This document shows positions 47,434 to 58,654 of a DNA stretch of 64,000 nucleotides, in pieces. The DNA is from Nitrosomonas sp. (GTDB taxonomy: Bacteria; Pseudomonadota; Gammaproteobacteria; Burkholderiales; Nitrosomonadaceae). The first letter of the stretch is position 1; each line of letters begins with the position of its first letter. The notes below the pieces were generated by a model. It saw only the letters and a program-made list of their open reading frames with translations. It made no database searches and was not told the origin of the DNA. The stretch covers positions 30,157-94,156 of the forward strand of contig JAJHPK010000016.1 in assembly GCA_020890945.1 (NCBI GenBank), read 5' to 3'. The position numbers were made by a program, and so were the translations under genes.

Positions 47434-50400
47434 TTATGCAGCCCACTTCCGGGCATGGCTGGCATAGTCGAGCATCAAATGAAACACGTTGTCGCATTTC
47501 TCGCGGAACACCGCCTGATCGTAGCTTTCCGGTAAATTGTGATCCAATACTTGTTCGACCGCTGAACGTACCATTTTCTGAGTTTGTGTGTCTTTATACC
47601 AATCCTGCACCAATACTTTGGGGTGTTTTTCCAGTAAGCGGTGCAGTAACGATTTCGCGGCCAGTTTTACTTTTTGCGTTTCATCCTGCGTCATCGTGTC
47701 TTTTTTCAGTAAATCGAACAACTCCAGCTCATCTTCATTCAAGCCCTCGTGAATGTGACGCTCATCCTCCGTGCGCAAATCCTCAGTGAATTGCATCAGA
47801 TTTTCGTAGTAGCTTTCAGTCAATGAATCACCAGCGTTGTAGGTATCAATAATTTGCTGCAAGCGTTGCACAAAATCCGTTCGTGTCACATTGTGTTGCA
47901 GCATCAATTCCAGCTTAAGCTGTAAAAAGGCGCGCAGATCAGCAATTTCGATATGTTTGTAAGTGACTTGTTTAAATTCCTCGCGCAATTTGTCGACATT
48001 GATTTTGCTCAAATCCCAGGTCTTGCCCTTTTGAATCATCTGATATTCCGCATCTTTTTGCGGTGCTTTAAGCACTTCCACACCCTCTACCACGATGTCA
48101 CTTTCATTTAACAGCTCGAAAATCTTCAAGCTGATCGCGTCGACGTTCTTCTGCTCGATATGTGCCTCGATGACGCCGCGCAGATATTGAAATGCCGCGA
48201 CTTCGAGTCCCTTGCCAAGCTCCAAAACCTCCGGCTTGCACGCTTCATACAGTGATGTGATCGCATTCTCATGTCGATTGAAACTTCTGCGCCACTCGTC
48301 GTTTGCCAGCAAGGTATTGGCAAACGGCTCAAATCGTCCGACTTGCTTGAATACATCATCGTTTCCTAATGCCTCGCGTAACGCAACCGCCTTCTCGTGG
48401 CAAAATGCAAAACCTTGTTCAATCGCATCGTCCAGCAAACGAAACAGCTCCGCTTTTTCCTTGACTGGCCATTCAGTTTCATCATCTTCTTGCGTGTAAT
48501 CTTTCAGTGCCAATTTCAAGTTACTGAACACATTGCAGTAATCCACGATTTCGCCGTTACGTTTCTCCACCTCGTTGATCTTCCACGACGTCACGCGATT
48601 GGTACGGGCAATGGTTCGCATCAGCGTATGGCCTCGCATCGGTTTGTCGAGATACAACGTGGACAGTGTCGGCGCATCAAAATCGGTCAACCACATAGCG
48701 CAGACAAACACCAGTTGCAGCGGATGTTCGGGATCTTGGTAGTTGTATTCGATATCGTGCCCATATTCATCGAGCTGATCCATGCGTTCACGATGCGGTT
48801 TGATGGTCAAGTTCTGCGCAGCAAATTTTTCTTTTTCGCCTGTGTCTTTGCTAATTACCACGGCCATTTCAACAGTGCGCATGAATTCTACCCGGTGCCT
48901 CAGGCGCCGTTTTTCAATTTCGCTAGGCGTTTTGCTGATAATCCCTTTCAGAGAGCTTATCTCTTGCTTCCACAACCGCTGTACTTTATCGTACATTGTC
49001 ACGGCGGTGAATTTATCGACCGATACCGACACAGCCCTTTGCCGAGATAACCGCGCCGAGGAAAGTGATTAACGATGTCCCGCGCGATTTTTTCCAACCG
49101 CTCGTCGCGTCTGATGATTTTCGCTGCTTTGGTAAGGCGCTGTTCCAACCCGGTTTGTTGCGCTTCATCCAGACCTTCATTCTCCAGATTCTGGCGCAAC
49201 CGCTCGCTCAATCCTTCTTTCTGAATCAACACCGCCGGCACGCGCTTGCGGTAAAACAACGGTACTGTCGCACCATCGTCGATCGACTGCTGAAAATTGT
49301 ATTCCGACACGTAACTGCCAAACCAAGCATTGGCCTTACGTTCACGCCCCAGCAGCGGCACGTCGGTGAATGCCAGATAATTCGCTTTCGGCAATCCCTT
49401 GCACATATTTGCCATCAACGACTGGTATTGCGAGCAGTGCACCTTGGCGAGGATCACAATGATGGTATTTCGGGCTGACAATTCGGGATATTCGCGATCT
49501 TTGTTCCAGTGAAATTTTTGGATCAGCGTAAAAACAATTCGTTTGTTCTGTGCTAGAAACTTTCGCATTTCCTTGCTGTTCTTCGGCTGTGCCGCTTCAG
49601 TCTCGCTCACCGTGCGGGTATGCAGAAAATTGTGGTAAATCTGACTGTCTAGGTCGTCGCGGTCGGTGACTACTACGAAAGTGAAATTGCCGGTCTGTTT
49701 GCGGAAAATTTTGCGCACGTAAAAAATCATCGAAAAATCTTTGTCCGATCCCTGGGTATGCCAAAATACCCCGAGCTTACCCGCTAATTCCTGACGTTTG
49801 AAGAAAACACCATACGCGCGATTTACACCGATAAACTGGTAGTTCTGCGCGATGATTTTCTGTGTATCCTTGTCATAGAGAACGAAATTCTCCACGTAAT
49901 CCAGCAATTTTTGCTGCGGCAACAGGCCCTCGATAACGCTCTCCAGGCTAGTGCCTTGTGCGCGGATTGCGGTACGGTCAATTTGCTGTTTCTCATCATC
50001 GACGCGTAACCAATTGAAATAATGCTGCCACTGTGCCGTGATGCTGCCGACTTTGGTTTCGACTGCGTTGGACAGCACGCAAAACGCATTGGTCAGGAAA
50101 AGCTGTGGAATCTCCGCCTTGAAATTCGTTAGATTATCGTCGTAGGCGTTGCGCAGCGCTACAGTCGAGTTTTTCAGCGCAATGAGCACCAACGGGATAC
50201 CATTCACATACAGCAACACATCCGGACGGCAAAAACCGCGCCTACCTTTGATCCACAGTTGCGTCACGACCAGATAGCGGTTATTGCTAGGTACGTTAAA
50301 ATCCAGCAGCCGCACGCGCCCCTGCTGAGACTGTCCTTGCGCATTGTCGAACGTTACTGGAATACCGTCGCACAACAGACCGTAAATTTCCTGATTTGCT

Positions 50401-50666
50401 GCAATCAACGACATTGCCTGTCGCTGTTCACACAGTTTTTCCAATGCATTTTCAATGGCTTCTGGTGGAATATCCGGGTTCAAACGGAGCGCGACATCAC
50501 GGACTCGGTCAACCAAGATCACATCACGTTTTCTGGCACGGTTTGAGCCGTCGTTCAAATCCTTCGCATTGACCGTATGGCAATTAAGCACGTCAAAACC
50601 ATGTCGATGCTGGAGCCTCTGCACCAAGGCTTGCTCGATCTGGTGTTCGGAAATGAAGTTGGGCAT
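47434..50666 (-). pseudogene. hsdR: Type I restriction endonuclease HsdR, inactivated
   Basis: Two frames together cover a full-length HsdR (about 1080 residues). The first (50666 to near 49020) ends after '[10 protein letters not shown]'. The protein resumes in another frame at 49032 with '[16 protein letters not shown]', consistent with loss of one base. Catalytic sites are also changed. The nuclease 'IELK' is 'IALK' near residue 161. The Walker A 'GSGKS' is 'GSDKD' near 308. The 'DEAH' box is 'AKVH' near 405. It lies downstream of a Tn3-derived insertion that separates it from hsdM-hsdS. Confidence 0.93.
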
Positions 50667-50715: not shown

Positions 50716-50739
50716 TTAAGGGAAAGTGATTTCCCTTAA
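50716..50739. repeat. Perfect hairpin upstream of hsdR at the transposon junction
   Basis: TTAAGGGAAA and TTTCCCTTAA pair perfectly around GTGA. The hairpin lies about 50 bases before the hsdR ATG, in its leader, and its last bases are part of the TAATT target duplication of the adjacent Tn3-derived element. Confidence 0.6.
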
Positions 50740-50741
50740 TT

Positions 50742-50884
50742 GGGGTAAAACAAGCAGTCGTGTTACCAGCCGCCATCTTGGCTACGGCAAATCAAGTGAG
50801 CATTCATATCAAGCTCAAAACGCCCATACGCGTTGATATGTTCCCATATCAAAGGTGTCAGCGCAACATAATCGCGTAATGTAT
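50742..50884 (+). repeat. Left terminal inverted repeat of the Tn3-derived element
   Basis: About 143 bp, complementary to 54765-54907 with roughly 85-90% identity by eye. It includes the canonical ~38-bp Tn3-type end starting GGGG plus the last ~40 codons of tnpA. Confidence 0.85.
50763..50884 (-). pseudogene. tnpA 3' tail at left end of Tn3-derived element
   Basis: It reads 'LRDYVALTPLIWEHINAYGR' then 'FELDMNAHL', the very C-terminus of a Tn3-family transposase. The frame extends upstream to 51005 without transposase similarity. It is homologous to the tail at 54765-54867. Confidence 0.8.
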
Positions 50885-51090
50885 AATTACATCTATCGAG
50901 TCTGACCCCTTTGATTCCATGATTGACCACCCTGAACCAATCGCACCGCTTCCAATTTGTATTCCAATGTATATATGATGTTCTTTTGACCTTTTCTGCT
51001 TTCATCTCTTCGTCTCCTTAACTTGCAAGTGTAACCTTAGTTAAGAAGTACGTTTTTACAGGGCAAAGTCATGTTTAAAGAACTGAATTT

Positions 51091-53634
51091 CTAGAGATGT
51101 TCACAAGTTGCCCCAATGCATCCAAGATTATTAAAATCGTATAGTTTTGAATGTCCGAGCTTTCCCGTGGGGTACGTCACTCTTTTTTGCAAAAAGAAGG
51201 TCACTGAATGAGCACCATATAAACCCGAAGGAATTGTGAATTCCTTCAATATAACATATGCATTTCCATGTATTTTAGGCTTGAATGCTGCTAATCGATC
51301 ACCGCCTACGATTTTTGGATGGTCCTTATACAGCTTTGCTTTTTCTGTTGCCCACAATTCGATATCGTCTTTACGCAGCGGTCGAAGAATTCCTTTGGCA
51401 AGAGCATCATTTATACCAGCCTGGCCAGCTTTGGGCATTGAGGCGTCGAGATGCTTTTCAGGTGGATTATTCTTAGATGTATGTAACCTAACAGAACTAG
51501 GCAGGGTTTCTCCAATTTGTAACTCACCATTTTTTGCGACATAAACAAGATCAGCAGATTTTCCAAAAACAATATTAGATAATGAATTGATTTCTGAAGC
51601 ATTATCCTCTTTCACATAAGCGTATCCACATGAAAAACCTTCTTGATATGAACTGTTGACTACTGGCATATTGTCTGCAATACCAGAAATTCTTTGGGCA
51701 TGATACCCGGTCACGAATACGCCTAATATCACAGTTCCACTTGTCCATTTTATATTCCACACAGATGGTTCATAGGCTCCCAGTAAAAGCGCTACGGGAA
51801 TATTGGGTGAATTTACCACTACCTCAAACTGAGTTGCAGTATGGCCGCTTTGGTCTATTTGGTAATCTGTTTCCTTTCCTCTATACGCCCCACCGGCATA
51901 AATCATAAAATTCTTAGGAAAAGAACTGGTATCCAGCTTGCAAGAAGCTTTTCTGACTGTTGTTGTAGATTCAACCTTTACAGGAGCCTGATTGGAGGGA
52001 GATTGTTCTGCTCGAAGTTGTGCTGCTCTAAGGGAAGTTTCCCAGATTCCAGTTAGATCATCAAGATTCTTGCCCGTTTTGATATCAACAAAATGCATTT
52101 TTTTCACAATACTACGCACCTCATCGTTCTCACTTTCTTTCATTTGTTTGTATGCAGATGAAAAAAATGGTGTGGTGAGTGTATTTTGGGATATCTTAAT
52201 GACATTTGAGTGCAAACTTTTCAAGATATTTAATATGAGAATTGCAGTTTCTCTATCTTGTTGCTTAAGCAAAGCTTCCAACATCTGACTAATTTTCAGC
52301 CAATAAGAAATATCGTCTTGTATTATTGTTGCACCGGCATTTATGAGAATCTGAGCAATATGATATTTATTTTCTAATAGAGACGATCCAAGTGCGGTTT
52401 CCTTAAACCCTCCTCTACCTTGACCTGCTATTAAATTAACATCTGCGCGATGTTTGATAAGCAGCTTAACCACATCTGCATAGCCGTTTTCAGCAGCAAT
52501 CATCAAGCCAGTTTTTCCAACCCCCATTTGTTGGGCATTGATATGCGCACCTTGCTTAATCATAAATTCGATGACTTGTAACAAGTCTGGATATCTCAGC
52601 GGATCTTTCCCTGCCAGCAAAGGAATAACTGGGTAATTAGGAGCATTAGTTTCATTGGGATCTGCCCCAAGCTCAATCAATAATTTAATATTTTCATAGT
52701 CAACACGTGACAATGCAGTAAATAGCAGCGTGGCTTTCTGTCCTGATTTAATGTTCGGATCAATTTTACTTTTGTCTATTAAGTCGGATAACCCAATTTC
52801 AGGGTTAGTCAACAGATGTAATGCAACTGTTGTATTTTGACCTGGGATTAAAACATTTGGGTTCGCGCCTTGATTTAACAGAATTCTAACCTGAGACCAT
52901 TGCGCTCTTGCCGCCAGAAGTGATAGTGCCGTTTCTTTGTTCCGGTTCTCTAAGTCAATGTTAATACCATGCTTAATCCCTAAATCTATAATCCGGATAT
53001 TTCCTATAAGTGCCGCTTTGTGAATTAAACCATTTCCTCCTCTATCAGTCGCATTAACATTGGCATTATTTTCTATCAATACATTGACGTTTTGTTCATT
53101 GCCTTTGGAGGCTGCAATTAGTAATGGTGTTTCTCCTTGCGCATTGGCTTTATTGATATCCACCCCCTTTTCAATAAGTCGCTGTAGCACATCCGGTTTA
53201 ACATAGTCCATAATCAAATGAGCAATATTATTTTTATTTGTGTCTAGACTATTAACATCTGCCTTATTTTGAACAAGTATTTCAAATGTCTCTAAAGCAG
53301 GATCTTCATGCGCCCTTACACTTAAATGAATAGGGAGCCTACCAGCGTTGTTTCTCCTATTAATATCCGCACCTAGCGCTAGGAGCCTGTTGATAATTTT
53401 TGTTTTATCGGAGGAATTCTTTGAGGTAACTGCCAAATGAAGGAGTGTTTCACCATTACTGGTCACAGGGTAGTTGATTTCTTCGCTGGTCAGCCTATCC
53501 AGCAAATTTATTGTACGTTCAGCCGAGCTGGAACGTATCGCATCTAATAGTGTGGGGTCATCGGCCCTAATTGCAGACACTGACTGCGACGACAAAAGTA
53601 GTAGAAGAAAAATATATTTGACTATGTGTGGCAT
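51091..53634 (-). CDS. Large secreted ankyrin-repeat protein with unknown C-terminal domain
   Basis: A 847-residue product is expected from the ATG at 53632-53634, which has GGAG 7 bases upstream. The signal peptide ends 'SSQSVSA', so the protein is exported. About ten ankyrin repeats span residues 30-440, for example 'NAQGETPLLIAASKGNEQNV' and 'GKTGLMIAAENGYADVVKLL'. A helical linker follows, then a ~250-residue domain with 'MIYAGGAYRGKETDYQID' and 'WTSGTVILGVFVTGYHAQR', which I cannot name. It is the only intact gene in the Tn3-derived element. It probably acts by protein binding outside the cytoplasm; the role is unknown. Confidence 0.88.
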   Translation of the reverse strand: MPHIVKYIFLLLLLSSQSVSAIRADDPTLLDAIRSSSAERTINLLDRLTSEEINYPVTSNGETLLHLAVTSKNSSDKTKIINRLLALGADINRRNNAGRLPIHLSVRAHEDPALETFEILVQNKADVNSLDTNKNNIAHLIMDYVKPDVLQRLIEKGVDINKANAQGETPLLIAASKGNEQNVNVLIENNANVNATDRGGNGLIHKAALIGNIRIIDLGIKHGINIDLENRNKETALSLLAARAQWSQVRILLNQGANPNVLIPGQNTTVALHLLTNPEIGLSDLIDKSKIDPNIKSGQKATLLFTALSRVDYENIKLLIELGADPNETNAPNYPVIPLLAGKDPLRYPDLLQVIEFMIKQGAHINAQQMGVGKTGLMIAAENGYADVVKLLIKHRADVNLIAGQGRGGFKETALGSSLLENKYHIAQILINAGATIIQDDISYWLKISQMLEALLKQQDRETAILILNILKSLHSNVIKISQNTLTTPFFSSAYKQMKESENDEVRSIVKKMHFVDIKTGKNLDDLTGIWETSLRAAQLRAEQSPSNQAPVKVESTTTVRKASCKLDTSSFPKNFMIYAGGAYRGKETDYQIDQSGHTATQFEVVVNSPNIPVALLLGAYEPSVWNIKWTSGTVILGVFVTGYHAQRISGIADNMPVVNSSYQEGFSCGYAYVKEDNASEINSLSNIVFGKSADLVYVAKNGELQIGETLPSSVRLHTSKNNPPEKHLDASMPKAGQAGINDALAKGILRPLRKDDIELWATEKAKLYKDHPKIVGGDRLAAFKPKIHGNAYVILKEFTIPSGLYGAHSVTFFLQKRVTYPTGKLGHSKLYDFNNLGCIGATCEHL

Positions 53635-54015
53635 CAGTAATCTCCAGTAATAAGAGCAATTATTCATTTGTTTGGATAAAAACACGGCGGATGATATTAA
53701 GGAAATTCTGATTAAGTTATTTATTTCAGTTTTGTCGACAAAGCCATCGGCAAAAATGAGGTCACATCTAGATATAGTACATCAACAAAATTGGCCTTTT
53801 TACAGTGCAACCAGAATTTGATTCTACATTTTATACGTACATGAATTAGCGCGTTACCATTGGCGCGTGATTCGACGAAAGTCCTGCCGCATGATGCATT
53901 GCGTTGCAATGCCTATTATCTGTTTCTTAAAACCGCAATAAGAAAGGGAAAAAGCGACTTATTTGGAATATAGTATATATATATCGTTCAAAAACGAACT
54001 GTTATACAAACGAGC
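53635..54015. other. Intergenic region inside the Tn3-derived element
   Basis: About 380 AT-rich bases between the divergent ankyrin gene and tnpA remnant. It includes a TATATATATA stretch near 53975 and a small GTTCAAAAACGAAC hairpin at 53985-53999. I see no resolvase gene or clear resolution site. Confidence 0.4.
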
Positions 54016-54867
54016 ATGAGAGCACATTTTTTTGTCCTACTGATCTATGCGAGTTCTCTCCGATTGAAAATTGGTGCTTGGTGTATACATTCGCAACTTA
54101 AATCGCCGTCCTCATCGGAAGTGGCCTCAATGATCGAAGGAGTGATTCATCATTGCACTGAAATGGAAATTGATCGTCAATATGTCGATTCTCACCGCCA
54201 AAGAACGGTTGTTTTTGCTTTTTGTCGTTTATTGGGTTTTCAATTATTACCTAGGCTGAAAGCCATTCACTCACAAAAACTAAGTCGGCCAGATGTCGGT
54301 ATGGCAGATGCGTATCCTAATCTACAACTGATTTTAACGAAACCGATTGATTGGGATTGCATACGGCAGCAATATGATCAAATGGTTAAATACACAACGG
54401 CTCTGCGACTTCGAACAGCGAAAACAGAAGCTATCTTACGGCGCTTTACTCGAAAAAACATCCAGCATCCGACTTACAAGGCATTTGCTGAATTAGGCAA
54501 AGCGATTAAAACTATCTTTCTATGCTGCCACCTGCACGACGAATCCATGCGCCGTGAAATCCACGAAGGTCTAAATGTGGTTGAGCAATGGAATGGCGCA
54601 ACTGATTTTGTGTTCTTTGCTCGAAGAGGTGAAATGTCAAGCAACCGCCGGGAAGATCACGAAATCAGTATGCTTGCCTTACATCTCATTCAAAACTGTA
54701 TGGTTTACATTAACACGTTGATGATCCAAAGAGTGTTAGCGTAGCCACACTGGCAAGTCAAAATGACATTACGCGATTATGTTGCGCTGACACCTTTGAT
54801 ATGGGAACGTATCAACCCGTATGGGCGTTTTGATCTTGATGTGAATACTCGACTTGACTTGCCGTAG
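54016..54867 (+). pseudogene. tnpA: Tn3-family transposase TnpA, C-terminal remnant
   Basis: The 242-codon frame reads '[20 protein letters not shown]', '[20 protein letters not shown]', '[16 protein letters not shown]' and '[18 protein letters not shown]', the conserved C-terminal half of Tn3-family transposases. An in-frame TAG at 54742-54744 stops it; the frame then continues to the natural end at 54867 ('TPLIWERINPYGRFDLD'). Family members have Glu where the stop lies, so one G-to-T change suffices. The N-terminal half and first catalytic Asp are missing. Confidence 0.9.
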
Positions 54868-54907
54868 CCAAGATGGCGGCTGGTGACAAGATTACTTGTT
54901 TTACCCT
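54765..54907 (-). repeat. Right terminal inverted repeat of the Tn3-derived element
   Basis: Inverted counterpart of 50742-50884. The outermost base is T where a C would complete the GGGG end, and the TAATT duplication follows at once. Confidence 0.85.
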
Positions 54908-55107
54908 TAATTAGTGAACATGCTTAAGTAACGATCAAACACGTAAGCGCGTCCTCTTTGCTGTCTTCCAGCAAACCAGCTCGGCAATGTTATGTTTTTT
55001 GATAAACCGATCGGTTGGTCAGCTGCTAAACAAAATAGATCTATTCGATTAACTTTCTTAAGTTGGTCGAAATGACGATTGGCTCCGAATCGTCTTCTGT
55101 AACAAAG

Positions 55108-56406
55108 TCAGGTATTGATCGCTTCTTCCATACCAGACGGGAACTGGATATTAAGATGCTCGACAGAAAGCTTGCCGGAGATGAGGCGAGGAAGGAGCAT
55201 AGCTCGCATTTTGCCAAGCTGTATATTGGCTTTCCCTAGCATATCAGCTTCCGCATACAACGGTTCAACAATTTGCGCAAATTTGTTTTGTAATGGTATT
55301 GGGGAAATCAGGATTTTCTGCTGCAGGATTAAGTCTGGCTTCAAATGTAAGACGTTTGCGCCATTGGCAAATTCTTTGATGAAATTGGCAAAACCTGAAT
55401 ACCTCATGTAAGCATATAAAAAAGTCTTGTGAACATTTTTGGGTATCAGCTTTACGGTATCAAGAGAGATGACAGCGCCTTTTTCACCTAAAGCAGGTAT
55501 GCGAGCAACTTGGCCAATAACTGCTCGGTCTTGCGTCATATCCGTTACGGCCATCACAACATCATTCTGATAGACCACCTGCTCTGGTTTGAATTGTCCT
55601 GAATAATATTTCAGTCCATCTTCACGATAGCCACCGCCACGATTAAAGGATTTGAGGTTGATAAAAGGCATGTGTCCTGTATCGTCCGTTAGCTCCTCGG
55701 CAGCATAGGATCTGCCTTTGGCTAAATTAAAAAACTTCGATGCTTCGTCAAAACGCCATTCTTCTGGCATTCCTTTGACGATCCTTGCTTTCTCATGCTC
55801 CGGAAAGCGCAGACGCACAAACCATTCGCGGTAGATTTCCTCGACCATTTTTTCCAGCAACGCAATGCGCCGCTGATTGTTGTCGATCAGTTCGTCGTAG
55901 GCGGAAAGAATTGCTGCTATGTTTCTCTGAGCTTGCGCTTTCGGTAAATAGATCGGGATTTTTTTAAGATCCCGAATGGGTATCTGCCGTTGGGCAGAGC
56001 CAGAGGCAAAATTTAAGATATAGTTCTGTAAGCTATTGGATGTGATGTAATAAAAAAGATATTTTGCATAAATATCCTTATTATCTGCTCGTAAAATTAA
56101 CATCTGAGCATTAATCAATCCTTTGTCGTTGCTCGTAACAAATGCCGCATCGCCAATACCGTTTCCTCTTGTTGTAAGAAGAATATCATTTCGAGCAATT
56201 CTTCCTTTTTTGATGTCTCGATATTTTTGTTCGGTAATGAAATTAACCGCCTCTTTGTTAATGGTTCCTCTGTTTATTGATTCGCCATTAAGAAACATAA
56301 TGCCGGAATCAACATACTCTTCGCGTTTTGGATAACGAGCTGACCGGTCACCATCGATAAATTGGGTATTGGTTTCTCCTATAATTATTGGATGGCTTTG
56401 ATTCAT
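55108..56406 (-). CDS. hsdS: Type I restriction-modification specificity subunit
   Basis: The 432-residue DNA-recognition subunit has two target recognition domains. The first is around 'FIDGDRSARYPKREEYVD' to 'ASGSAQRQIPIRDLKKIPIY'; the second runs from about residue 220 ('KGMPEEWRF') to 'QNKFAQIV'. Conserved helical spacers follow each ('LSAYDELIDNNQRRIALLEK' and 'LGKANIQLGKMRAMLLPRLI'). The frame is intact. Its ATG overlaps the stop of the upstream HsdM C-terminal frame as ATGA. The N-terminus is slightly short compared with usual HsdS, and the Tn3-derived element lies 200 bases downstream. Confidence 0.92.
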   Translation of the reverse strand: MNQSHPIIIGETNTQFIDGDRSARYPKREEYVDSGIMFLNGESINRGTINKEAVNFITEQKYRDIKKGRIARNDILLTTRGNGIGDAAFVTSNDKGLINAQMLILRADNKDIYAKYLFYYITSNSLQNYILNFASGSAQRQIPIRDLKKIPIYLPKAQAQRNIAAILSAYDELIDNNQRRIALLEKMVEEIYREWFVRLRFPEHEKARIVKGMPEEWRFDEASKFFNLAKGRSYAAEELTDDTGHMPFINLKSFNRGGGYREDGLKYYSGQFKPEQVVYQNDVVMAVTDMTQDRAVIGQVARIPALGEKGAVISLDTVKLIPKNVHKTFLYAYMRYSGFANFIKEFANGANVLHLKPDLILQQKILISPIPLQNKFAQIVEPLYAEADMLGKANIQLGKMRAMLLPRLISGKLSVEHLNIQFPSGMEEAINT

Positions 56407-57113
56407 AGATTATTCTCAGTCATCTGACGAAGATTATGGGTAATGATTGATTCCAGTCCTTGCGCATTTTCGTTTAATTGCGCAAACTCATTATTCAGCG
56501 CCAGCAACTCCGCAACAAACTCCTCCTCACTCTTGCCATCTTCCTCGATCACCACGCCGACATACCGCCCTGGATTCAGCGAATAATCCTGCTCTTTGAT
56601 TTCCTCGAGGGCAGCTAGTTTGCAAAGGCCGATGACATCTTCGTATTCAGCATTGGGGAAGCGTTCTTGCAGCCAGTGGATATGCTGAAAGTAAATTTCC
56701 GCATTATTCACATCTTGGTGCAGTTCTTCCAGTGCGGATTTGAGTGCTTTTGTCCTACGATCAGTTGAAGTGCGCGTGCCTTCTCGAAGCGCTTGTCCGC
56801 TTTGCTGTTTTTCGTGCTGACACAAGGTCTTATCCAAGCGCTTCAAGTCTTCATGCAGCGTGGTAAAAAAAGGATCAAATGCATTGTACAATTGGCGTTG
56901 CGATTGATTCTTGGCGCTAATGGAAGATTTTTCTTTCCCATTCGGAACGACCAAGCTGTTTTGTCGTAAATAGTGCTGGTAGCGTACCTTGAGCTTGTTC
57001 AATTCTGACCAATGCTGCAATAGTTGATTCACCGCTTGTTTTCCGTTCGCATCGTTCGGCGTATCGAGAAATTGTGCGTAGACAGATTCGATCTTTTCGT
57101 TGTTTTCGATCAA
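56403..57113 (-). CDS. hsdM: Detached C-terminal domain of HsdM
   Basis: The 236-residue, largely helical frame begins at a TTG that overlaps the end of the hsdM catalytic frame. Its last part, 'YSLNPGRYVGVVIEEDGKSE' followed by 'EEFVAELLALNNEFAQLNE', is the standard C-terminus of HsdM. With the 461-residue frame before it, the total is about 697 residues, a normal HsdM length. A single missing base near 57118 explains the split. Coupled translation (TTGA overlap) could still yield two pieces that assemble. Confidence 0.85.
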   Translation of the reverse strand: MIENNEKIESVYAQFLDTPNDANGKQAVNQLLQHWSELNKLKVRYQHYLRQNSLVVPNGKEKSSISAKNQSQRQLYNAFDPFFTTLHEDLKRLDKTLCQHEKQQSGQALREGTRTSTDRRTKALKSALEELHQDVNNAEIYFQHIHWLQERFPNAEYEDVIGLCKLAALEEIKEQDYSLNPGRYVGVVIEEDGKSEEEFVAELLALNNEFAQLNENAQGLESIITHNLRQMTENNL

Positions 57114-58495
57114 CTGCTCAATACCGTAGCAAAGTAGCGATCGACAAGCTGCACAAATTTCTCTCGTCGGCCTTTATGCAGATGGCTGATGATAGCGATG
57201 TTCTGGATCTGTTCTTCGCTAAATACACGGTGGGTGCGGTCGATCTGGGTAAAAATGTTGCGCGCATCGATGAACAAAATCCTGTCGTCACTCTTGGCTT
57301 TGTCGAAAAACCACAGTGTGGCGGGCAGTGAGACGGTGTAGAACATATTCGACGGCAGCGTTAGCATGGCGTAGATCAGCTTTTGTTCGATCAACTTTTT
57401 GCGGATGTCGGCTTCGGAGTGGCGTGCATCGGAAGCGGAATTTGCCATGACCAATGCGGCGCGGCCTTGCGGTTTGAGCGAGGTAGCGAACAGGTTGATC
57501 CACAGGTAGTTGCCGTTCGGCACGGTTTCCTTGTCTTTGTCGGCTTTTTTTACTTTTGATTTGTTTCGTGGGATGCCATAGGTATTGAAGCGTTTGTCCT
57601 TTTCCACGCAGGAAAGACTCACATCATCAACATTGAACGGCGGATTGGCGAGCACGTAATCGAATGCACCGAAGCTGTTATGTGGATCTTCATAGTAGGT
57701 GTTGCCCTGTTTGATTTCGCCGCGTAAACAGTTGACCGCAAGATTCATCTTGGCAAGCTTGACGGTATCCTGGGTTTTTTCTTGGCCGCATACATACACG
57801 TCGTTATTCGCGCCTTTCAATTTCTCACGCTGTGCTCCGATGAACTGGGCGGATTGCACGAACATGCCACCAGAGCCGCAAGCGGGATCGAATACCTTGC
57901 CGCCATGCGGTTCGATGATTTCGACCATTAGCCGCACCACCGAACGCGGCGTGAAGAATTCGCCGCCTTTCTGGCCTTCGCTGCGCGCGAATTCGGACAA
58001 GAAGTATTCGTAAATCTGCCCGAACAGGTCACCTGTCGTGTTGAAAGGAATATCCGCGAATGTTCTCAGCAATTGTTGCGGAATGGTTTTGTCAGTGCGC
58101 GTCAGCGCGGCATATTCATCCTTCGGCAGCACCCCTTCGAGCTCCGGTTTGTATTCTTCAATCACCTTCATCGCTTCCTTAAGCGCTTTGGCGATGTCCT
58201 TTTCTTCCGACAAATTCAGCAGATAATCGTAGCGTGCGTAATCGGGCAGGTAGAAACCACAGTGCTTGATGGCGATTTCAGAAATTGATTTCTCGCATCG
58301 GGTACCCTGCAATTGCTGATATTCGGCGAGAATGGCTTTTTCGTGACGGCGGTAGTTGTTGTCGGCAAATTTGAGGAAAATCAGTCCCAATACTGGTGTC
58401 GCATACTCGCTCGACTTCAAATCGGAATTTGCACGCAGGTTATCGGCGGCACTCCACAGATCGGCCTCGAGTTTTTTCAGTTGATCCTTGTTCAT
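57110..58495 (-). CDS. hsdM: HsdM methyltransferase, N-terminal and catalytic part
   Basis: The 461-residue frame has the HsdM N-terminal helical domain ('LEADLWSAADNLRANSDLKS') and an N6-adenine methyltransferase domain. SAM motif I 'VFDPACGSGGMFVQSA' lies near residue 203 and catalytic motif IV 'YVLANPPFNVDD' near 281. Both motifs are intact. It ends early with 'RYFATVLSS', where the family continues into the C-terminal domain encoded by the next frame. It is first in the operon hsdM-hsdS-(insertion)-hsdR. Confidence 0.92.
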   Translation of the reverse strand: MNKDQLKKLEADLWSAADNLRANSDLKSSEYATPVLGLIFLKFADNNYRRHEKAILAEYQQLQGTRCEKSISEIAIKHCGFYLPDYARYDYLLNLSEEKDIAKALKEAMKVIEEYKPELEGVLPKDEYAALTRTDKTIPQQLLRTFADIPFNTTGDLFGQIYEYFLSEFARSEGQKGGEFFTPRSVVRLMVEIIEPHGGKVFDPACGSGGMFVQSAQFIGAQREKLKGANNDVYVCGQEKTQDTVKLAKMNLAVNCLRGEIKQGNTYYEDPHNSFGAFDYVLANPPFNVDDVSLSCVEKDKRFNTYGIPRNKSKVKKADKDKETVPNGNYLWINLFATSLKPQGRAALVMANSASDARHSEADIRKKLIEQKLIYAMLTLPSNMFYTVSLPATLWFFDKAKSDDRILFIDARNIFTQIDRTHRVFSEEQIQNIAIISHLHKGRREKFVQLVDRYFATVLSS

Positions 58496-58654
58496 GAGCT
58501 ATTGGGGGTGTTTCAGAATCTTTTTTGCTGATTATTGCAGATTTTAATGCTACTTTTATATTTTTTGCCCGTAAGTTCTGCGTCATCGCATTGAGCAATC
58601 TATTAATATCTACTTTTGTATTCTGTTGTGCAATAGCTGATTTGTTTAATTACT

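Follow-up and report, generated by a model that had tools for sequence, protein, structure and literature searches.

A 64,000-nucleotide stretch of Nitrosomonas DNA (the window) contains an ankyrin-repeat gene enclosed by two inverted sequences, each joining the tail of a Tn3-type transposase gene (tnpA) to an inverted repeat (IR). This arrangement raises the question of whether the two ends and everything between them moved as one unit, and by what means. The block is probably a Tn3-derived cassette of the non-autonomous kind: it has a tnpA-side end on either side, and a transposase acting in trans is likely to have moved it. An annotation based on transposase genes would list an ankyrin gene beside a transposase fragment.

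Boundaries of the block and derivation of its ends

The block measures 4,166 bp (50742-54907) between its duplications and consists, from left to right, of the left end, a dispersed repeat, an insertion sequence (IS) end, the ankyrin gene, a second IS end, about 320 bp of further DNA and a tnpA remnant. The features are as follows.

50737-50741, no strand: left target duplication TAATT, read from the sequence; a single TAACT stands in the empty sites of three relatives
50742-50884, minus strand: left end, a Tn3-type IR (GGGGTAAAACAAGCAGTCGTGTTACC...) plus the last ~34 tnpA codons, outward-reading, with a 1-bp deletion
50887-50922, no strand: piece of a dispersed repeat (GAGTCTGACCCC type), with short matches in G022, G060 and G015
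50918-51072, minus strand: truncated IS end (~155 bp) with the start of its first ORF, terminus towards the ankyrin gene; 79-90% identity over all or most of its length in G007, G031, G008, G005 and G016
51091-53634, minus strand: ankyrin-repeat gene, 847 aa from the ATG
53697-53754, no strand: truncated end of another IS (~58 bp), terminus towards the ankyrin gene
54073-54867, plus strand: tnpA 3' remnant, 795 bp, with one in-frame TAG at 54742-54744 (PF01526, E 6.5e-78); DNA homology starts at 54081
54765-54907, plus strand: right end, tnpA tail plus IR, with the tip AGGG and not GGGG
54908-54912, no strand: right target duplication TAATT, from the sequence and the empty sites of relatives
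54910-54963, minus strand: final 18 codons of a Fic-domain gene, which G020 has complete (tblastn 88.9%; Fic_N/Fic in the relative)

A first reading from the sequence alone had proposed terminal inverted repeats of 143 bp, and the alignment of 50742-50884 with 54765-54907 agrees, with 129 of 144 columns identical. The similarity covers IR and tail alike, so it is not restricted to the coding tail, a pattern that had been named as counting against the proposal. Identity reaches 94% in the inverted arms 50798-50882/54766-54850 and 85% in the arms 50731-50797/54852-54918. At 15 of the 144 columns the ends disagree, so they are not freshly duplicated copies, or are old ones. When 50737-50900 is searched against the whole genome, the right end is recovered at E 6.8e-53, and a third copy is absent at E <= 0.001; likewise, the 64-kb window holds two IR-like sites and no third at up to 7 mismatches in 26.

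The perfect TAATT duplication that had been read outside the ends is indeed there, directly abutting both of them. From base composition, a 5-bp match at fixed places has a chance of 1.1e-3, and a 5-mer common to both places at this spacing occurs at 85 of 59,824 window positions. A 5-bp target duplication is a trait of Tn3-family derivatives that the block displays, as are IRs of about 38 bp that start with GGGG and are common to a Tn3-family transposon, and a transposase sequence, here represented by the remnant only. Both tips had been described as starting with GGGG, which is correct for the left one and not for the right.

The derivation of both ends from the tnpA side, proposed at the outset, is supported by comparison with complete elements. 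The left-end query covers 123-142 bp of their tnpA-side ends, whereas against the tnpR-side ends used as a control it spans only 35-40 bp (35 in G013, 38 in a Methylomonas plasmid and 40 in an Acidithiobacillus plasmid). The last tnpA codons had been noted at both ends, and both tails are present; missed was that the ends are unequal, the left one keeping only the last ~34 codons and the right one extending into the 795-bp remnant. The G013 transposase is 982 aa long, and the remnant covers its residues 719-982 with 90% identity at the protein level. At the DNA level, G013 is 84.5% identical to the left end (BLASTN of 50742-50882 against the tnpA end of locus L021) and 85.5% identical to the right arm, sharing 120 of 144 columns with the left end and 121 of 143 with the right. 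Judged from these alignments, the block is bounded by two inverted tnpA-side ends of a single Tn3 lineage.

We compared the window ends with five others, from G013, Methylomonas, Diaphorobacter, a Methylobacter MAG and a gammaproteobacterial MAG. Seven bases are private to the two window ends, so both descend from one sublineage; a further 7 changes are confined to the left end and 6 to the right, with 2 ambiguous, and the ends have drifted about equally since. Four of the six right-private changes fall within the outermost 19 bp of the right IR, and this end may therefore not work now.

The left IR bears on one-ended transposition, in which a single tnpA-side IR would have produced a variable second end. 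Such events, and solo IRs of Tn3 elements, are mentioned in passages of PMC4133298. However, the second end here is not random: a recognisable tnpA-side IR lies exactly at the duplication, which contradicts a one-ended origin and makes it scarcely probable.

An empty site in the type I restriction operon

The block sits in a type I restriction operon, between hsdS (55108-56406) and hsdR (48999-50666 plus 47434-49032). Querying 61 genomes with the protein of the initial hsdR segment gave matches at E <= 1e-60 in nine of them, own included, and for the DNA comparison we used the three closest of the other eight, all of them congeners (G020, G029 and G016; 82-84% identical). In each, DNA similarity extending from the hsdR side runs directly up to that extending from the opposite flank, with no insert between them. 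When the window flanks are joined by one TAATT, the resulting sequence CCCTTAATTAGTGAAC aligns through against CCCTTAACTAGTGAAC of the relatives. The empty site that had been proposed as a test is thus found in all three congeners compared, with a single TAACT in place of TAATT, and it shows that the block came in whole, as a single unit. G020 has an entire Fic-domain gene in the interval from hsdS to hsdR, on the hsdS side (L038 5410-6546), and its last 18 codons are those that remain beside the block in the window. More generally, the empty site shows that Tn3 debris can still mark a unit that moved.

This comparison weighs heavily on the idea that two independent Tn3 insertions in opposite orientation came to flank a resident ankyrin gene, with the TAATT match arising by chance. 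Ankyrin genes are common in the group, some match to the protein at E <= 1e-10 occurring in 40 of the 61 genomes (own included), and a resident gene would not be surprising in itself. Yet nothing lies between the flanks in the three relatives, the coincidence of five bases has a chance of about 1e-3, and a full-length match to this ankyrin protein is confined, among the 61 genomes, to its own. The empty site largely refutes two separate insertions, and we give them only a slim chance.

An assembly artefact is very improbable as well. The draft genome (2.68 Mb, 99.95% complete) is in 106 contigs, and the frameshifts described below for hsdM and hsdR could be sequence errors; against this, both junctions lie within one 94-kb contig, the one that carries the window, the flanks align with the relatives across the site, and the ends are not identical, as those of a collapsed repeat would be.

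At the same locus, hsdR (47434-50666) and hsdM (56403-58495) are each split by a frameshift into two overlapping frames, and both are whole in G020; the hsdR of G016 is also in more than one frame. These frameshifts suggest that the restriction system may be decaying, or else they are draft errors.

The ankyrin gene and the remains around it

The passenger had been described as an 847-residue ankyrin protein, a length that holds when counted from the ATG. Its hydrophobic N-terminus resembles a Sec signal by eye, and the protein is probably exported. The ankyrin repeats extend to about residue 420. They are followed by a C-terminal domain of about 285 residues (window 51094-51990) with invariant cysteines and glycines, which is sporadic in the phylum: searches for this part gave matches in 8 Burkholderiales genomes (399 examined) and alignments in 8 across the phylum (398 examined), own included in both counts and with several of the matches short. 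In L060, L061 and L062 the domain lies on an ORF without the ankyrin part (whole-protein tblastn), and G871 holds several matches to it.

Only ankyrin-type models of Pfam and NCBIfam match the protein. NCBIfam names pointing to Dot/Icm effectors fall far short of their cut-offs, the best reaching 71 bits against 600. PADLOC reports PDC-M72A (E 2.1e-40, best stretch 37-200) and Ankyrin, both within the ankyrin part. Among plasmids, 41 records have ankyrin-type matches to the whole protein and none covers 80% of it. For the C-terminal domain, no match is found in phages, plasmids or viral contigs, no Pfam model applies, and the PDB sequences contain nothing convincing (best E 0.4). Its structure model is of fair quality (pLDDT 83.8), and Foldseek returns no match to it at E <= 0.001, the best being a betaglycan orphan domain (1.9e-3, TM 0.26). 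The GC content of the gene, 39.4%, is unexceptional, as 90 of 615 windows are lower. Promoter and terminator scans gave results at chance level.

The remaining interior is a patchwork. The IS end at 50918-51072 is, going by the start of its ORF, presumably of the IS3 type. The one at 53697-53754, which we take to be of the IS5 type from the ORF sequence, has 10 matches in G020, among the best 10 of 70 candidates there, with further matches in G027, G008 and G016; sequence of this kind lies near a transposase-like ORF in L074, L075 and L078. The ~320 bp before the tnpA remnant match nothing but their own copy, among the best 10 or fewer candidates per genome in the 61 genomes. What the block shares with the G013 element is limited to the IRs, the tail and the remnant of tnpA, and nothing of that element's tnpR region is found inside. 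Several elements seem to have decayed step by step around the gene, leaving the Tn3 ends as the outermost signals still intact, and the presence of a truncated IS end on either side suggests assembly and deletion in steps.

The same patchwork could be read differently. An ordinary Tn3 element, with its tnpR-side end on the left and its tnpA-side end on the right, may have inserted here; recombination or gene conversion with another copy would later have put a tnpA-side end in place of the left one, and the ankyrin region would have replaced the inside. Such a history would also leave a target duplication and an empty site, and the truncated elements do imply much rearrangement at some time. 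It requires, however, a further exchange in which the outer boundary was preserved to the base, and the interior retains no tnpR region of the G013 type. We regard this course of events as unlikely and prefer a cassette that moved with two tnpA-side ends already in place.

Helper transposase, related elements and paired ends elsewhere

For the preferred cassette, two tnpA-side ends of one lineage would have come to lie inverted around the ankyrin gene. The transposase of an intact relative, acting in trans, would then have recognised the two outer IRs and moved all that lies between them as a unit. The target was the 3' edge of the Fic gene in the restriction operon, where the insertion made the TAATT duplication. 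TnpA acts on the IR common to both Tn3 ends, and a tnpR-side end would therefore not be needed. Because nothing like the tnpR/res of G013 is present inside, the resolution of cointegrates would depend on host recombination. The first reading had two inverted ends mobilise the DNA between them; insertion as a unit is shown by the empty site, and the mobilising step itself is what the above scheme would supply.

The block has neither a complete tnpA nor a resolvase nor a tnpR-side end, as an autonomous Tn3 element would. A full Tn3 element in the same genome had been named as something to look for, and none was detected: a profile search with PF01526 finds one place only, the remnant, and no other Tn3 transposase. 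With no helper detected and the right IR decayed, the block is probably immobile now. With the G013 transposase as query, 17 of the 61 genomes of the genus give a hit at E <= 1e-20 (own remnant included), and the close and complete transposases are only those of G013 itself and G001 (72%). A complete element is thus present in the congener G013 (uncultured Nitrosomonas KLAP95; L021), with tnpR, the 982-aa tnpA, one tnpA-side IR and two tnpR-side IRs. Between the latter two lies a Fic gene (L021 318-1382) that differs from the one in G020. This element is of the same end lineage as the block, differing in its tnpR, full tnpA, tnpR-side IRs and Fic gene, and it may show what the parent looked like. 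No matching duplication is seen at the bases inspected in its outer flanks. Another complete relative, on a plasmid of Methylomonas sp. LL1 (58502-72083), has ATTTA outside both ends, which indicates that the lineage makes 5-bp duplications.

The likeness to TIMEs suggested at first is not borne out. In the parts of the sources that describe them, TIMEs and TIME-COMPs resemble the block in being Tn3-derived and non-autonomous, with a 5-bp duplication and unrelated DNA carried along. According to the same parts, Tn3-derived elements without a transposase gene do transpose and make 5-bp duplications (PMC4133298), and movement of such elements has been shown with the transposase in trans (PMC13367494). 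However, the TIMEs described there are 262 bp long (PMC4133298), against 4,166 bp for the block, which is no miniature element (MITEs, 50-500 bp). In TIME-COMPs, going by a section of PMC13367494, either end is formed by an entire TIME, which has two IRs; the block has one IR per end, and the window two IR-like sites in all.

Closer are the mobile (minimal) insertion cassettes (MICs) of Tn3-like transposons, which excerpts of PMC4619425 and PMC7157771 report from Xanthomonas, around TnXax1. In both, Tn3-type IRs surround a passenger without a functional transposase, and movement is thought to occur in trans. Differences, as far as those descriptions of the Xanthomonas MICs allow comparison, are the tnpA tails at both ends (one of them a 795-bp remnant), the ankyrin cargo and the Nitrosomonas host. 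The block fits the MIC concept, and is nearer to it than to TIMEs, as a variant of MIC-like elements and not a new kind.

Tn7714, of the Tn1721 type, was also considered; in the portion of PMC11332342 concerned with it, a truncated tnpA with an intact IRR forms the outer end beyond a passenger gene, with the duplications outside. That element keeps a full tnpA and a tnpR-side IRL, whereas the block has no full tnpA and, in place of the tnpR-side end, a second, inverted tnpA-side end. In open-access PMC text, partly judged by titles, we found no ankyrin cargo in a Tn3 transposon, nor, in such text, a non-autonomous Tn3 transposon in Nitrosomonas. The block is a documented case in this genus of an ankyrin gene captured by a transposon.

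A search for further copies of the paired ends around different cargo had been suggested, and none was found in the genomes, plasmids and contigs searched, for this end lineage and not for the Tn3 family at large. The own genome holds no second pair of tnpA tails. Among the 61 relatives, three have end matches (own, G013 and G001), with the tail pair only in own. With the best two candidates per genome considered, the left end is matched in 5 of 399 Burkholderiales genomes, own included; only in own, G013 and G376 does the similarity extend past the IR, and two tails are present in own alone. On the same basis, 4 of 369 genomes of the class match it, the three besides own with one match each. 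PLSDB has 14 records with matches in 15 places, and five of these records were inspected inside (Methylomonas, Diaphorobacter, Acidithiobacillus, one Xylella and one Azotobacter, the last scanned over 11.4 and 19.3 kb of its 69 kb). The only record with two places, that of Methylomonas, was examined over its full length and holds an ordinary element with a tnpR-side IR at 58502 and a tnpA-side end at 72083. A narrow end pattern has no match in IMG/VR, and of the 11 loci (3.8-8.0 kb each) retrieved by a pattern search of genome contigs none has two tnpA-tail ends. Within the sequences inspected for this lineage, two inverted tail-type ends without a tnpR-side end were seen only here.

With no second copy or insertion site found, mobility rests on one event. 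The block predicts that two tnpA-side ends suffice for transposition. It is conceivable, and we put it forward tentatively as somewhat short of an even chance, that a pair of inverted tnpA-side ends is by itself a functional module for capture, in which any two outward tnpA tails of decayed copies of one Tn3 lineage carry the intervening DNA when an intact relative passes through the cell.

The searches also returned other arrangements of these ends, the first three below being further non-autonomous forms that this lineage makes. In a Giesbergeria MAG (L050 3849-4117), two of these Tn3 ends lie inverted within 269 bp, flanked on either side by AACTT; this pair is TIME-like. In Nitrosospira multiformis (L041) a 3.7-kb IR pair has a truncated tnpA at one end. 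In Azotobacter beijerinckii (L048 3658-4936) an IR pair spanning 1,279 bp tightly encloses a transposase gene of the IS1595 type; either the Tn3-type ends belong to this gene or the gene hopped in. Neither of the last two pairs has a matching 5-bp duplication. On a Xylella taiwanensis plasmid (L086 6001-6230), a solo tnpA-tail end is followed 181 bp on by a second IR in the same orientation. Finally, on the Azotobacter chroococcum plasmid pAcX50d (L087 6001-6136), a solo tnpA-tail end stands beside genes annotated as a Qat anti-phage system.
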